Source: Selenomonadaceae bacterium (lineage in GTDB: Bacteria; Bacillota; Negativicutes; Selenomonadales; Selenomonadaceae). From it: a stretch of 64,000 nucleotides of DNA. Both the position numbers and the translations under genes were made by a program. Shown one piece after another: positions 2 through 41,798 of this stretch (its first letter is position 1; every line of letters begins with the position of its first letter). The notes below the pieces were generated by a model. It had not been told where the DNA came from, did no database searches, and saw nothing but the letters and a program-made list of their open reading frames with translations. The stretch is taken from the NCBI GenBank assembly GCA_022773425.1, contig JALFBM010000014.1, positions 1 through 64,000 of the forward strand, written 5' to 3'.

Positions 2-175
2 TCGCCTGAGTCACGTTCGCATATCTTGATCAATGTACCGATGGCTAGTCGGGAACAGGCCGTTGCCTTGCCCAGCAAGGAGCACGGTCAACGCCTTTGG
101 AGTGTACAAGAACTTGTGAGTAGTCTCAGGCTTGCCTGGACAAAAGCATACACGATGAAAAAGGAATTTTTCTAG
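2..175 (+). CDS. C-terminal end of an unidentified frame (partial)
   Basis: An open frame enters from the left edge and runs 57 codons to a TAG at 173-175. It ends in a stretch containing LWSVQELVSSLRLAW and a short basic/aromatic tail. I do not recognise the family, and no start is visible because the frame continues off the window. Base composition is less GC-biased than the gene that follows. It could be the tail of a real gene, of a mobile-element gene, or a chance frame. Confidence 0.3.
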   Translation, partial: SPESRSHILINVPMASREQAVALPSKEHGQRLWSVQELVSSLRLAWTKAYTMKKEFF

Positions 176-6433: not shown

Positions 6434-8443
6434 ATGCCTCGGAATATGTCCGCGTGGATGGATCTTACCCTGCAGCTCGTCATTATGCTGACGCTGATCG
6501 GGATTCTCGCCTGTTACAATGTCTACGCGGCGGCCGCCGCGCTCGTCCTGTGGTTTTGCCTCGTGCTGTTCGCGCACGAACGCTGCAGGGACCGCTCGAG
6601 GCGGTTCACCCGCTACTGCAAGAACATCGTGCAGAACATCGGCGAGATGACGACCTACGCCGTCGAGGAGTTGCCGCAGGCCATTCTCGTGGTCACGGCA
6701 GACGGGCGGCTGCAATGGTTTAACACGAATCTAGAAAAATGTCTGGGCTTCCGCCCGGATGAAAATACCGATGTCAAGGATTTCTGGCCAGGCTTCATCA
6801 TTTCCCCGGTCTGGGGAACGGAAGGCGAGTACGTCTTCGCGCACGAGAATACCTACTATCAGGTGAAGTACCGGCCGGTCCCGCTGCCGCCGCATCAGGA
6901 CCCGCTCATGGCGTTCTACGTGCAGGATATCACGCAGTTCGAGACGATGCGGAAGGAATTCATCGAGAGCCGGACGGTGCTCGCCTATATCCAGATCGAC
7001 AACTATGACGAGGTTATGCAGGGACAGTCCGATGCGGAATGCGCGGCGCTGCTGCTCTCGGTCAATCAGCTGCTCGACGGCTGGCTCAAGGAGCTCGGCG
7101 GTTTTATGCGCCGCGTGTCGGAGGATCAGTACATCGCCGTACTCGACCGCAAGGCGCTCGAGCAGGCCATGCATGAAAAATTCGATATTCTCGACAAGGT
7201 CCGTCAGCTCCAGAACACGAACCGGCTGCCGGTCACGCTTTCGATGGGTATGGCCGTTGCCGATAAGCAGAGCCTCAAGGCGCTCGGCAGCCAGGCACAG
7301 GCGGGCCTCGACCTTGCGCTCGGGCGCGGTGGTGACCAGGTCGCCGTGAATATCGGCGGCAAGACGCAGTTCTTCGGCGGCCGCGCGAAGGCGGTCGAGA
7401 AGCATACGCGCGTTAAAGCGCGCGTCGTCGCGCATGCCATCCGGGAGATCATGGAGGGTGCGGATGCCGTCTACATCATGGGACACCATAACGAGGATTT
7501 CGACTGCTTCGGCGCGTCCATCGGCATCGCGCGCATGGCAAGGCATCTGAAGAAACCCGTCCGCATTGTGCTTTCGAATACGAACGAGGGGATCGAGAAG
7601 TTCCAGGGACTCCTGCGCGGGCATGAGAATTTCGAGGATCTCTTTGTCCACGAGGAAGATGTGATGAATCTGACGGCGCTGAATCCCGTGCTCTTTGTCG
7701 TCGACACGCATATCCCACATCTCGTGGCTGCGCCGTCCCTGCTCGAGCGGATCCCGCAGGTCGTCGTCATCGACCATCACCGGCGCAGCGAGGACTTTAT
7801 CCGCAATCCGCTGCTCGTCTACATCGAGCCGGCTTCGAGCTCCGTCAGCGAGCTCGTGACGGAGCTGCTGATGTATTTTAGCGACAACATGCGGCTTTCC
7901 CGGCTCGACGCGACCGCGCTCTACTCGGGCATTGTCGTCGATACGAAGAATTTCGCCGTGCAGACCGGCGTCCGCACGTTCGATGCGGCGGCGTATCTGC
8001 GGCGCAGCGGCGCGGATCCGGTGCTCGTCCGCCATCTGTTCCGCACGGATTATGAGACGACCGTCATTCTGTCGCGCGCCAAGGCGAATTCGAAATTCTA
8101 CCCGGGCGGGCTCATCGTCACCTCCATTCAGGAGCCGCGGCCCGATATCACGATCATCGCGGCGCAGGCCGCGGACGCGCTGCTCAGCATCGAGGGCGCA
8201 CAGATGACGATCGTCGTGTTCCAGCTCGACAAGGATACCGTCGGCATCAGCGCGCGCTCGACCGGCGAGGCGAACGTGCAGGTCATCATGGAGGCGTTCG
8301 GCGGCGGCGGCCACCAGAACGTCGCCGGCGCCCAGATTAAGGGCGCGGATCTCGAGGAAATCAAGGCGAAGGCCATTGCGCTCAGCCAAAAGTATATAGA
8401 GGAGAATGATCAAGATGAAAGTGATCTTACAGCAGGACGTTAA
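6434..8443 (+). CDS. gdpP: Cyclic-di-AMP phosphodiesterase GdpP (YybT)
   Basis: Membrane-bound enzyme that hydrolyses c-di-AMP and thereby sets osmolyte, potassium and wall homeostasis. The order is canonical: two N-terminal membrane helices (about residues 8-50), a PAS-like domain (about 75-165), a degenerate GGDEF domain (about 170-300), a DHH domain with GHHNEDFDCFGA, DTHIPH and IDHHRRSED motifs (metal ligands), and a C-terminal DHHA1 domain ending with GGGGHQNVAG. Length (669 aa) is normal. The start at 6434 has AGGAG ten bases upstream. The 3' end overlaps the start of rplI, indicating translational coupling. Confidence 0.95.
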   Translation: MPRNMSAWMDLTLQLVIMLTLIGILACYNVYAAAAALVLWFCLVLFAHERCRDRSRRFTRYCKNIVQNIGEMTTYAVEELPQAILVVTADGRLQWFNTNLEKCLGFRPDENTDVKDFWPGFIISPVWGTEGEYVFAHENTYYQVKYRPVPLPPHQDPLMAFYVQDITQFETMRKEFIESRTVLAYIQIDNYDEVMQGQSDAECAALLLSVNQLLDGWLKELGGFMRRVSEDQYIAVLDRKALEQAMHEKFDILDKVRQLQNTNRLPVTLSMGMAVADKQSLKALGSQAQAGLDLALGRGGDQVAVNIGGKTQFFGGRAKAVEKHTRVKARVVAHAIREIMEGADAVYIMGHHNEDFDCFGASIGIARMARHLKKPVRIVLSNTNEGIEKFQGLLRGHENFEDLFVHEEDVMNLTALNPVLFVVDTHIPHLVAAPSLLERIPQVVVIDHHRRSEDFIRNPLLVYIEPASSSVSELVTELLMYFSDNMRLSRLDATALYSGIVVDTKNFAVQTGVRTFDAAAYLRRSGADPVLVRHLFRTDYETTVILSRAKANSKFYPGGLIVTSIQEPRPDITIIAAQAADALLSIEGAQMTIVVFQLDKDTVGISARSTGEANVQVIMEAFGGGGHQNVAGAQIKGADLEEIKAKAIALSQKYIEENDQDESDLTAGR

Positions 8444-20679: not shown

Positions 20680-20925
20680 AAAAAAACCCCGTCCCTCGAA
20701 GGGACGGAGGTTTATTTCCGCGTTACCACCCAATTTCCCGGCAAGGCCGGGCACTCACAACGTACCAACATACGTGTCTCCGATAACGTGGAGAATCCGT
20801 CTTGGCTTACCTCTTTCGTTCAGCCTCGCTCCTCAAGGAGGATTTTCGTCTCTGCCTCCGTCACCGCTTCTCAGCAAACCGCGGCTCTCTGTGTACTTCG
20901 TACAGAAATTACTCGTTCCTATCAT
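20680..20925 (-). promoter_or_regulatory. T-box leader, probable isoleucine (AUC) specifier
   Basis: On the minus strand the leader has a stem I region with AGUAA and CAGAGAGCCGCGG motifs, a stem III hairpin (ACGTA...TACGT) and the hallmark antiterminator GGTGGTAACGCGG (20718-20730). It ends in a terminator CCTCCGTCCC/GGGACGGGG plus seven T (20680-20710). The specifier loop GACGAAAATCCTCC places AUC (Ile) at 20841-20843. The specifier reading is by alignment to general T-box patterns and is less certain than the T-box itself. Confidence 0.88.
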
Positions 20926-20979
20926 CGGATGTTTACAATCTTGTTGAATTTTTTGTGTTTTTGAAATCTGTTTGTAAAT

Positions 20980-26985: not shown

Positions 26986-27014
26986 TTGACAATTTGCGCG
27001 GATTGCCCTATAAT
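26986..27014 (+). promoter_or_regulatory. Promoter of the sulfur-carrier operon
   Basis: TTGACA at 26986-26991, 17 bases, TATAAT at 27009-27014, a perfect sigma-A promoter. The following bases (27021-27055) are A/T-rich with partial dyads and could hold a repressor site. Confidence 0.75.
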
Positions 27015-27086
27015 GACGTTAATTACTTAGAAAACATATTGATATTATATGATTAGCCGTCCGGCCGTAGGTCATTCGACAAACGA

Positions 27087-27165
27087 AAGCCTGCGGAAAG
27101 CGTCGGAGAACAGGACAGGTATGCCTCGGTTCCCCCTTGCTTTCCGCAGGCCTTTTTGCAGGGGC
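27087..27165 (+). terminator. Long hairpin with T-run in the operon leader (possible attenuator)
   Basis: GCCTGCGGAAAGC pairs perfectly with GCTTTCCGCAGGC, with an inner GGAGAAC/GGTTCC helix, then five T, all upstream of the first gene at 27185. Position after a strong promoter and before the first ribosome site suggests conditional termination. No known riboswitch fold was recognised in the 65 bases before it. Confidence 0.5.
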
Positions 27166-27184: not shown

Positions 27185-27394
27185 ATGAAACTGACGGTAA
27201 ATGGGGATCCCTTGGAAATTGAGAAGCCGATCACGGTGAAGGAATTGCTCGTCGTCGCGAAGGCCGAGCAGCCGGAATACGTGACGGTGGAACTCAATGG
27301 CGAGTTTGTCGACCATTCCGGTTTTGAGACGACGACGGTAAAGGACGGCGACGTCGTGGAGTTCCTGTACTTCATGGGAGGCGGTGCGAGATGA
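27185..27394 (+). CDS. ThiS/MoaD-like sulfur carrier with extended C-terminus (HcyS-like)
   Basis: A 69-residue ubiquitin-fold sulfur carrier. It ends FLYFMGGGAR, so two residues follow the diglycine that must be exposed before thiocarboxylation. Carriers of this type (CysO, HcyS) are trimmed by a JAMM protease, and such a gene lies two genes downstream at 28224. ATG 27185 follows GAGGAGGAAG; the frame is open upstream to 27137 without a site. The stop overlaps the next start. In Wolinella succinogenes, from memory, a similar carrier delivers sulfide for homocysteine synthesis by MetY. Confidence 0.85.
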   Translation: MKLTVNGDPLEIEKPITVKELLVVAKAEQPEYVTVELNGEFVDHSGFETTTVKDGDVVEFLYFMGGGAR

Positions 27395-28209
27395 GCAGCC
27401 TGACGAATGAGCAGCTGGAACGGTATTCCCGCCACATCATCCTCCAGCAGGTCGGCGGTAAGGGCCAGGAGAAGATTCTCGGCAGCAAGGTGCTCGTCAT
27501 CGGCACGGGCGGGCTCGGCGCCCCGGCGGCGATGTACCTTGCCGCGGCGGGCGTCGGCACCATCGGACTCGTGGATTTCGACGTCGTGGATCTGTCGAAC
27601 CTCCAGCGCCAGATCATCCACCAGACGGCGGATGTCGGCAAGCCAAAGGTCGACTCGGGCCGCGAGACCATCGAGGCGATGAACCCGGACGTCGACGTGC
27701 ACACCTATCATGAGATGGTGACGTCGGCGAATATCCGCGACATCATCCGCGATCAGGACTACGATTTCATCATCGACGGCACGGACAATTTCCCGGCGAA
27801 ATTCCTGATCAACGATGCCTGTGTTTTTGAAAAGAAGCCGTTCGTGCATGCGGGCATCCTTCGCTTCTCCGGGCAGCTCATGACGTATGTGCCGGGCAAG
27901 GGGCCGTGCTACCGCTGCGTGTTCAAGACGATGCCGCCAAAGGACGCTGTGCCAACCTGCCGGCAGGCGGGCGTCCTCGGCGTGATGGGCGGTGTCATCG
28001 GCACGCTGCAGGCAACGGAGGCGCTCAAATACATCCTCGGCGTCGGGGAGCTGCTCACGGGGTATCTCCTGACCTATGACGCGCTGACGATGAAATTCCG
28101 CAAGGTCAAGATACCGCGGGATCCGCACTGCGCCATCTGCGGCGAGCATCCGACCATCACGGAACTCATCGACTACGAGCAGCCGGCCTGTGACCTGCGG
28201 AAGGCCTGA
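27391..28209 (+). CDS. ThiF/MoeB/HesA-family E1-like adenylyltransferase (HcyF-like)
   Basis: Adenylates the C-terminus of the sulfur carrier in the cytoplasm. The P-loop-like GTGGLGAPAAMYLAAAGVG is followed by the DFDVVDLSNLQRQI and DGTDNFPAKFLIND motifs. The structural zinc sits in paired CYRC and CAIC, and a potential catalytic Cys lies in PTCRQAG. 272 aa without a rhodanese domain places it with ThiF/HesA rather than long MoeB. It is translationally coupled to the carrier gene. Confidence 0.92.
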   Translation: MSSLTNEQLERYSRHIILQQVGGKGQEKILGSKVLVIGTGGLGAPAAMYLAAAGVGTIGLVDFDVVDLSNLQRQIIHQTADVGKPKVDSGRETIEAMNPDVDVHTYHEMVTSANIRDIIRDQDYDFIIDGTDNFPAKFLINDACVFEKKPFVHAGILRFSGQLMTYVPGKGPCYRCVFKTMPPKDAVPTCRQAGVLGVMGGVIGTLQATEALKYILGVGELLTGYLLTYDALTMKFRKVKIPRDPHCAICGEHPTITELIDYEQPACDLRKA

Positions 28210-28223
28210 GAGGAGGAACCGGC

Positions 28224-28637
28224 ATGATCGTAAAGCTGAAGCTGCAGGATTACCTTTCGCTGGTCCGTCACGCGCGCGCTCTCTCGCCAGTCGAGGACTG
28301 CGGCCTCCTTGGCGGCACCATCGAGGACGGCGTCAAGACCGTCGAGAAGGTATTTTACCTGACGAACGTGGACCACAGTGCGGAGCATTTTACGCTGGAC
28401 CCGAAGGAACAGTTCGCGGCGGTCAAGGAGCTGCGCGCCAAGGGCTGGCAGCTTCTCGGCAATTGGCACAGCCACCCCGCGAGCCCCTCACGTCCGAGCG
28501 AGGAGGATAAACGCCTGGCATTCGACAGCAAGGCGAGCTATTTTATCCTGTCGCTGAACGGCGGGGAGCCGGTACTGAACAGCTTCCACGTGGACCGGGA
28601 CAAGACCGTCACGAAAGAGGATCTGCGCATCCGGTAA
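28224..28637 (+). CDS. JAMM/Mov34-type metalloprotease for sulfur-carrier trimming (HcyD/Mec-like)
   Basis: A 137-residue single-domain zinc protease. The JAMM motif is complete: the Glu in PVEDCGLLGG, then HSHPASPSRPSEED (His-X-His-Pro...Ser-X2-Asp). Mec (mycobacterial CysO pathway) and HcyD have the same size and remove residues after the carrier's diglycine. The preceding carrier with its GG-G-A-R end is the obvious substrate. RBS GAGAGGAGG is present. Confidence 0.9.
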   Translation: MIVKLKLQDYLSLVRHARALSPVEDCGLLGGTIEDGVKTVEKVFYLTNVDHSAEHFTLDPKEQFAAVKELRAKGWQLLGNWHSHPASPSRPSEEDKRLAFDSKASYFILSLNGGEPVLNSFHVDRDKTVTKEDLRIR

Positions 28638-28670: not shown

Positions 28671-29531
28671 ATGGCAGTAGACTACAAGGAACTCAAGAAG
28701 GGCGGACTCATGCGGCAGAAACAGAAGGACTGTTTCTCCATGCGCCTGAAGTCGGTCGGTGGGCATTTTACGGCGAAGCAGCTGGATGTCATTCAGCAGG
28801 TCGCGGAAAAATACGGCAAAGGCTATGTGCATCTGACGAGCCGTCAGGGCATTGAGATCCCCTATATCCGCTTGCAGGATATCGAGGAGGTCAAAGGCGC
28901 TTTGAAGCAGGGCGGCGTCGAGATCGGCGTCTGCGGCCCGCGCGTGCGCACGATCACGGCGTGCCAGGGGGCGGCAACCTGCCCGTCCGGTCTCATCGAT
29001 ACGGTGAAGATGGCCAACGAATTCGACCGCCGCTATGGCGGCAAAGAGCTCCCGCATAAGTTCAAGTTCGGGTTCACGGGCTGTCACAACAACTGCCTGA
29101 AGGCGGAGGAGAACGACTTCGGCGTAAAGGGCGGCGTCATGCCGAAATGGGATGCGGCGTCCTGTACGTATTGCGGCGTCTGCGAAGCCGTTTGTCCGGA
29201 AAAGGCCATCAAGGTCGATCGGGACGGACAGAGCCTCGATTTTGACGCGGATGCCTGCGTGTACTGCGGCAAATGCATCAAGAGCTGCCCGACGGATTCG
29301 TGGACGGGCGAGAATGGCTTCGTGATTTCGTTTGGCGGACTCTATGGCAACCGCATTGCGGTCGGCCGTCATTTCCTGCCGATCGTCTTTGATGAGGAGA
29401 AGGTCTATGAGATCGTCGATGTCACGCTCCAATTCTTTGAGGACAACGCGAAGCCGAGCGAGCGTTTCGCGAACTGCCTCGATCGCGTGGGCTGGGATAA
29501 ATTTCAGAAGAAAGTGGAGGAAGTCTTATGA
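28671..29531 (+). CDS. Siroheme sulfite (or nitrite) reductase with ferredoxin domain
   Basis: A 286-residue cytoplasmic reductase of the small AsrC/NirA-like type. Siroheme/4Fe-4S ligands are in TACQGAATCPSG (C-X5-C) and GFTGCHNNC (C-X3-C). They are followed by a two-cluster ferredoxin insertion with CTYCGVCEAVCP and CVYCGKCIKSCP. It should produce sulfide that is loaded onto the carrier. Nitrite as a substrate cannot be excluded, but the sulfur-relay neighbours favour sulfite. Overlaps the next gene by four bases. Confidence 0.88.
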   Translation: MAVDYKELKKGGLMRQKQKDCFSMRLKSVGGHFTAKQLDVIQQVAEKYGKGYVHLTSRQGIEIPYIRLQDIEEVKGALKQGGVEIGVCGPRVRTITACQGAATCPSGLIDTVKMANEFDRRYGGKELPHKFKFGFTGCHNNCLKAEENDFGVKGGVMPKWDAASCTYCGVCEAVCPEKAIKVDRDGQSLDFDADACVYCGKCIKSCPTDSWTGENGFVISFGGLYGNRIAVGRHFLPIVFDEEKVYEIVDVTLQFFEDNAKPSERFANCLDRVGWDKFQKKVEEVL

Positions 29532-29776
29532 GCCGGAAGCAAGCAGATGCGGCGATTGACATCACGGATGTCGTCTGTCCGATTACCTTTGTCAAGGTAA
29601 AGGTCGCACTCGAGGAGCTCGAGGACGGGCAGACGCTCGCCGTGCACCTGAACGACGGCGAGCCGATCCAGAATGTGCCGCGCAGCCTGAAAGACGAGGG
29701 GCACAAGGTGCTGTCCGTGGACAAGAACGAGGATGGCACGTTTTCCCTGCTCGTAGAAAAAGGCGGCCTGGCGTGA
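29528..29776 (+). CDS. TusA/SirA-family sulfurtransferase
   Basis: An 82-residue sulfur shuttle with the TusA fold. The active Cys is in DVVCPITFVKVKVALEEL, a CPIT variant of the usual CPxP. The ending LSVDKNEDGTFSLLVEK is the typical last strand. It probably passes persulfide sulfur between the reductase/donor and the carrier system. Its stop overlaps a GTG that opens the metY remnant. Confidence 0.88.
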   Translation: MSRKQADAAIDITDVVCPITFVKVKVALEELEDGQTLAVHLNDGEPIQNVPRSLKDEGHKVLSVDKNEDGTFSLLVEKGGLA

Positions 29777-29853
29777 AGTTCACGACGCGGCTCCTGCACG
29801 AGGCGTTTGCGCCAGACCCGTCGACCGGCGCGACGACACTGCCTTCCCGATAG
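29773..29853 (+). pseudogene. metY: Truncated N-terminus of an O-acetylhomoserine sulfhydrylase/cystathionine synthase-like gene (metY remnant)
   Basis: A GTG overlapping the tusA stop opens a 26-codon frame with TTRLLHEAFAPDPSTGATTLP. The part LLH...DP-TGA...LP is the very N-terminus of the PLP Cys/Met-metabolism family, where IYQTS normally follows. Here the frame ends after two more codons, inside the stem of the terminator at 29841-29865. The rest of the gene (about 400 codons) is gone. The coupled start is what a cotranscribed metY would have. Identification rests on a short stretch but the pattern is specific. Confidence 0.65.
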
Positions 29854-29865
29854 GAAGGCTTTTTT
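29841..29865 (+). terminator. Terminator of the sulfur operon
   Basis: GCCTTCC/GGAAGGC with a five-base loop and six T. The left arm overlaps the last codons of the metY remnant, so the deletion joined metY codon ~24 to this terminator. Confidence 0.85.
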
Positions 29866-29931
29866 CTTGACTTTCTGCTGTTTTTGCTTTAGGCTATACA
29901 AGGTGATAGAATAGGAAAGGGTGGTGATTCC

Positions 29932-30378
29932 GTGACGTTCCGGACGGAGTATCATGTCAATTACTATGAAACCGACGCGATGGCCGTGGTGCATCATTCG
30001 AATTATGTGCGCTGGTTTGAGAACGGACGCGTCGATTTTCTGCATCAACTTGGGATATCGCTCAACGATATGACGGCCGATGGGTTTTCCTACCCGATTA
30101 CGGAGGTCAGCGTGAAGTATCTTGAGCCGGCTCATTTTGACGATATCGTGATCATTGAGACCATTCCGACCGCGCTGACGCGCGCGAAGATGGAGTTCGA
30201 CTACCGCGTCATCAAGAAGGGGACGCAGGAGCTGCTCGTGACCGGACATACCCAGAATGTGTTTACGAGCCTGGAAACCGGCCACATCACCCGTCTGCCA
30301 GAGAAGTATTACGGCAAGCTCCGCGAGATCATGAAGAAGGTCAAGGCAGAAAAGGCACAGAAAGCCGCAAAAGCGTGA
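29932..30378 (+). CDS. Acyl-CoA thioesterase, YbgC/4-hydroxybenzoyl-CoA thioesterase family
   Basis: A 148-residue hotdog-fold hydrolase. The motif YYETDAMAVVHHSNYVRWFENGR has the catalytic Asp and the His of the YbgC/4HBT group. The substrate is probably a short or medium acyl-CoA. The start is GTG 29932 after GGGTGGTG. A Lys/Ala-rich tail (KKVKAEKAQKAAKA) is added at the C-terminus. It heads a group with the two genes that follow, 25 and 13 bases apart. Confidence 0.88.
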   Translation: MTFRTEYHVNYYETDAMAVVHHSNYVRWFENGRVDFLHQLGISLNDMTADGFSYPITEVSVKYLEPAHFDDIVIIETIPTALTRAKMEFDYRVIKKGTQELLVTGHTQNVFTSLETGHITRLPEKYYGKLREIMKKVKAEKAQKAAKA

Positions 30379-41658: not shown

Positions 41659-41679
41659 GAAAAGCAAAAGTATATTGTG

Positions 41680-41784
41680 TGGGGAGCTCGTCGGAGTCGT
41701 TTGTTTTCCAAACGGGCTGAGAGGGCAGTGGGACTGCCGACCCAGAACCTGATTTGGATAATGCCAACGTAGGGAGTACAGAGA
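41680..41784 (+). promoter_or_regulatory. TPP riboswitch (THI element)
   Basis: Conserved THI-box pieces appear in order: GGGGAGCTCG, GGGCTGAGAGGGC, GACCC, GAACCTGATTTGGATAATGCC and AACGTAGGGAG. An intrinsic terminator follows at 41799, giving transcription attenuation when thiamine diphosphate is bound. Confidence 0.95.
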
Positions 41785-41798
41785 TTCTGTAAAGCGGA

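Follow-up and report, generated by a model that had tools for sequence, protein, structure and literature searches.

A metY remnant at the 3' end of a sulfur-carrier operon in a Selenomonadaceae bacterium

In a 64,000-nucleotide stretch of a Selenomonadaceae genome (GenBank assembly GCA_022773425.1, contig JALFBM010000014.1, forward strand; hereafter the window), an operon built around a small sulfur-carrier protein ends in a short reading frame. With a probability of roughly 0.86, this frame is the 5' remnant of a metY gene of the type that closes the operon in relatives, left behind when the operon was severed by a rearrangement or a large deletion and the upstream genes were kept. We hold with good confidence that the remnant is a real metY fossil, biologically sensible and the product of an ordinary kind of gene loss.

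The operon lies on the forward strand. It has a promoter with TTGACA and TATAAT elements (26986-27016) and encodes a ThiS-like sulfur carrier with a ThiS domain (HcyS-like, 27185-27394), a ThiF/MoeB-like adenylyltransferase with a ThiF domain (HcyF-like, 27391-28209), a JAMM/M67 protease with a Prok-JAB domain (HcyD-like, 28224-28637), an AsrC-like sulfite reductase with NIR_SIR and 4Fe-4S (ferredoxin) domains (28671-29531) and a TusA-domain protein, the tusA-like sulfurtransferase (29528-29776). HcyS, HcyF and HcyD are the gene names in use for the Wolinella system. All five genes are intact, as the initial annotation had stated of the upstream genes, and dN/dS values of about 0.03-0.17 against relatives show that the last four, for which they were calculated, are maintained. 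At the C-terminus of the carrier (...FMGGGAR), two residues follow the glycine run, as would be expected of a carrier trimmed by a JAMM protease, and this ending is common to most Selenomonas relatives. Judged by sequence, all five upstream genes look functional.

The short frame after tusA

A GTG codon (29773-29775) overlaps the tusA stop codon TGA (29774-29776) in the sequence GTGA, confirming the overlap that the initial annotation had pointed out, and opens a forward-strand frame of 26 codons that ends at a TAG (29851-29853). The frame (29773-29853) translates as VKFTTRLLHEAFAPDPSTGATTLPSR followed by the stop; 24 of its codons are homologous to metY and the last two encode Ser-Arg. From the start codon to position 29843, the DNA is ~87% identical to the first 71 bases of the intact 407-codon metY of S. 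bovis, UBA2897 and others, and with the full orthologous metY as query the frame was matched at E 3e-6 across the whole genome. Only 24 of about 407 metY codons are left and the catalytic lysine region is absent, so the capacity to encode the enzyme has been lost.

The first residues of the frame had been read as characteristic of O-acetylhomoserine sulfhydrylases. The N-terminal motif, however, occurs throughout the Cys/Met-metabolism PLP family, and cystathionine lyases and methionine gamma-lyase also match it; the name metY therefore rests on synteny with relatives and not on the motif. An intact metY was found directly after tusA at loci L062, L063, L067, L069, L072-L076, L080, L081 and L087. 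The closest relatives with a complete gene at this place are Selenomonas bovis (L062), RUG102 (L063) and UBA2897 (L067, genome G001), and S. ruminis and S. ruminantium also carry a complete metY directly 3' of tusA. The relatives' operon metY has 405-407 codons (for example, MKFTTRLLHEAFAPDAATGATTQPIFQSSAFYQ) and shares the stop/start overlap with tusA, as ATGA or GTGA. The presence of an intact gene at the syntenic place in close relatives supports the proposal that the operon once ended in metY. Other relatives lack metY, and in none of them was this short frame seen.

Compared to S. bovis metY, the remnant shows four nonsynonymous and eight synonymous differences over 23 codons, which is within the range of intact pairs. 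We considered dN/dS of the remnant as proof of decay and set it aside as uninformative on these counts. That no clear relaxation of selection is seen points to a recent break, to a stretch too short for relaxation to show, or to a misassembled join.

The break, its flanks and metY loss in relatives

An intrinsic terminator (29841-29865, forward strand) lies at the break and consists of a 7-bp stem (GCCTTCC-CGATA-GGAAGGC, 29841-29859) followed by six T; its 41-base stretch has a folding energy of -12.3 kcal/mol (z -3.3). The frame had been described as breaking off into a terminator stem. The terminator is there, but homology to metY stops abruptly inside the first bases of the stem rather than ahead of it, and the first three bases of the terminator are the last metY-homologous ones. 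An origin of the terminator as a leftover of the metY end of relatives was rejected, as the sequences 3' of metY differ there. Similar terminators occur elsewhere in the same genome (for example, on contig C17), which marks that of the remnant as an ordinary terminator.

Downstream, a promoter (TTGACT ... TAGGCTATA, 29867-29903, forward strand) precedes a gene for a YbgC/FadM-type acyl-CoA thioesterase (29932-30378, forward strand), the first gene of an unrelated operon. The promoter is conserved: six relatives have it in front of this thioesterase gene, with different genes further upstream. Of the two flanks of the carrier operon in the window, panCD and the thioesterase operon, neither adjoins it in relatives. 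In S. bovis, thiamin genes precede the carrier operon and the contig ends after metY, so that the nearest relative shows no downstream neighbour; in UBA2897, the genes after metY are sbp-cysTWA-aprAB-cysDN (named from sequence and homology searches). With flanks that do not adjoin the carrier operon in relatives, the break resembles the edge of a rearrangement more than the outcome of simple decay. One such edge inside metY is the simplest account and a likely one, the single event being our reading of the junction.

The initial annotation left it open whether the gene was lost or had moved. The assembly is a single draft of 84 contigs, and a search of its assembled 1.91 Mb (82% complete) with the full enzyme as query found no second copy of the operon-type metY; nor, even at E 10, did the missing 3' portion of the gene turn up in the same 82% complete assembly. 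The search did return a canonical MetY on contig 59, 39% identical to the operon-type query. A canonical MetY and a MetA-type acyltransferase were found in all six genomes checked (G000-G003, G006, G013), G000 being the genome studied here, and their retention indicates that the chemistry is backed up. In the same assembly (82% complete), we found no sulfate-binding protein, no member of the PAPS-reductase/CysD/CysH family and no close AprA, only a distant FAD-protein homologue. The sulfite reductase and the carrier operon are kept in this genome, although the sulfate-binding protein, AprA and CysD, whose genes come after metY in UBA2897, gave no close match in the 82% complete assembly.

Loss at this position recurs in the family. 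On a tree of four upstream proteins, parsimony requires the state of metY to switch between intact and lost seven times, and well-supported branches force at least four of these switches; by this count, about seven separate lineages of Selenomonadaceae lack metY at this place or carry it broken. Unrelated DNA follows tusA at L064-L066, L068, L070 and L077-L079. At four of these loci (L064, L065, L068, L070), metY has been removed and sbp now follows tusA; at L066 and L077 other DNA lies there, and a Mitsuokella pair represents a further mode. Selenomonas montiformis (L071, ~7109-7316) carries a more decayed metY fossil after tusA, with internal deletions and an in-frame stop after SAFY, of which N- and C-terminal pieces remain. 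In one Mitsuokella genome (L216; G159, contig 9), an intact 406-codon operon-type metY lies away from its operon with a leader element of its own, and there the gene has moved. The literature searched held nothing on metY loss in Selenomonas.

The events at the studied locus may be pictured as follows. The ancestral order would have been carrier (HcyS-like), activating enzyme (HcyF-like), JAMM protease (HcyD-like), sulfite reductase, tusA and metY, the last two linked by translational coupling at the ATGA/GTGA overlap. A rearrangement or large deletion would then have cut the operon after metY codon 24 and joined its end to a terminator and to the promoter of the unrelated thioesterase operon. 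Sulfur from the five remaining genes is probably now passed to the canonical MetY at its other locus or to some different acceptor.

An intact metY could still exist if the contig wrongly joined the carrier operon to the thioesterase locus. The state of the draft, with its many contigs and incomplete coverage, would allow this, the stub still looks constrained, and the sulfate-assimilation genes could fall in the unassembled part. However, the junction occurs once in the assembly and has no long repeat by which an assembler might be misled (its best secondary match in the same assembly covers 29 bases of the terminator at 90% identity), the join leaves both the terminator on one side and the conserved promoter on the other complete, and several relatives with assemblies of their own also lack metY at this position. 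We consider such an assembly error improbable.

The clean start-stop overlap, the terminator directly 3' and the mild constraint over 23 codons could also be taken to mean that selection maintains the frame, either as a small protein with a function or as a coupling device at the operon's end. This is very improbable: relatives without metY keep no such frame (L064-L066, L068, L070 and L077-L079, with a decayed gene at L071), the 26-codon frame having been seen in none of those examined, and the constraint is accounted for by descent from a functional metY. Chance resemblance to a MetY N-terminus might be argued from the mere 24 residues and from a motif found family-wide, but ~87% DNA identity over 65-70 bases at the exact syntenic position, together with the overlap, leaves it next to no credibility; it is refuted by synteny. 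A remnant of operon-type metY is therefore the reading we retain. Such a fossil is a snapshot of a sulfur-carrier operon without its dedicated acceptor and with its carrier machinery intact, and the repeated loss opens to testing the question of whether canonical MetY, or some other acceptor, can take sulfur from the carrier.

Leader RNA and operator-like repeat

Between the operon promoter and the carrier ATG (27185) lie a leader hairpin, a putative antiterminator (27065-27096, forward strand) with a conserved GGUCAUUCG...CGAAAGCC core, and a strong leader terminator (27089-27156, forward strand) that uses the hairpin's 3' strand as its own 5' arm. The hairpin follows the consensus CCGnAGG-UCA-UUCG-loop-CGAA-AG-CCUnnGG. 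A model of the leader matched 31 of the 381 genomes of the class, often two to three times per genome, and the weakest of these matches may be chance; the 3' strand of the hairpin runs on into a terminator in 26 of 34 copies. Among 31 distinct leader sequences, 94% of cells pair, a figure that leans towards the structure to which the alignment was fitted. Covariation, read on the same structure-fitted alignment, gave 13 double-changed cells compared with 2.7 in shuffles (0 of 500 reached the observed value). One candidate copy (L224) was rejected, as it lies inside a coding frame and has no terminator.

The genes 3' of leader copies, named from sequence, are the carrier operon, sulfate-uptake operons and the relocated metY, and further DUF2292 genes near cysK and metY and an amino-acid ABC transporter. 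The leader gave no match at gathering threshold to the 4227 models of Rfam 15, and at E up to 5 only chance-level matches to eukaryotic miRNA and lncRNA families. Elsewhere in the window, Rfam matches were a RAGATH-18 RNA (94-166, forward strand), a T-box leader (20697-20934, reverse strand) and a TPP riboswitch (41670-41793, forward strand). The literature searched held nothing on the leader RNA. On balance we favour, with some reserve, the view that the leader carries a small attenuator RNA not described before, by which Selenomonadaceae control a set of sulfur-assimilation genes as a regulon; the element may act as a riboswitch of a new kind or be recognised by a protein antiterminator. If confirmed, it would tie the carrier operon, sulfate-uptake genes and metY into one regulon.

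Just 3' of the operon promoter lies an operator-like inverted repeat (AAAACATAT...ATATGATT, 27031-27054, forward strand), and most relatives share the conserved arrangement AAAACATAT-n-ATATGATT ahead of their operon. At several loci (for example, L063, L064, L065, L067 and L068), the hairpin is absent and the operator-like repeat is kept. Related AACATATATG motifs were observed upstream of sbp. The repeat is a possible candidate for the site of a sulfur regulator.

Comparison with known systems

The remnant is most directly compared with the operon-type MetY of Selenomonas, as in UBA2897 and S. bovis, with which it shares position, start overlap and N-terminus; the gene is complete there, at 405-407 codons, and reduced to 24 codons in the studied genome. 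The S. montiformis pseudogene likewise sits after tusA with the upstream genes kept. It differs in its C-terminal pieces, in-frame stop and internal deletions and in its flank, and the different flank indicates an event independent of the one studied here.

Among structures, chain 3ri6 (O-acetylhomoserine sulfhydrylase), the W. succinogenes enzyme, was only the seventh-best match to the MetY of relatives, and the idea that the W. succinogenes enzyme is the nearest relative of the operon MetY found no support. By its parts, the operon would belong to the Wolinella type of protein-thiocarboxylate route to homocysteine, in which, by analogy, MetY would accept sulfur from the carrier thiocarboxylate. 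In Wolinella succinogenes the route runs from HcyS/HcyF/HcyD to MetY. Two papers (PMC6271081, PMC5764234) cite the work on this system (Krishnamoorthy & Begley 2011, doi 10.1021/ja107424t). Compared with the Wolinella route, a ThiS-like carrier with residues after the glycines, a ThiF-like activator, a JAMM protease and a sulfur-supplying reductase are shared, and MetY as acceptor is shared with the intact relatives. Of the parts that mark an Hcy-type operon, a trimmed ThiS-like carrier, a JAMM protease and a ThiF-like activator are present in the studied genome and an in-operon metY is not. The differences are that metY is a 24-codon stub and that TusA and an AsrC-like sulfite reductase lie inside the operon.

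Among known architectures, that of the HMP-PP (thiS motif) riboswitch comes closest to the leader, going by its published description. As set out there (PMC6478431), the aptamer of that riboswitch is embedded in the terminator and only HET-P/thiamin genes lie downstream, whereas here the hairpin stands upstream and contributes no more than its 3' strand to the terminator, and the downstream genes are those of sulfur assimilation.
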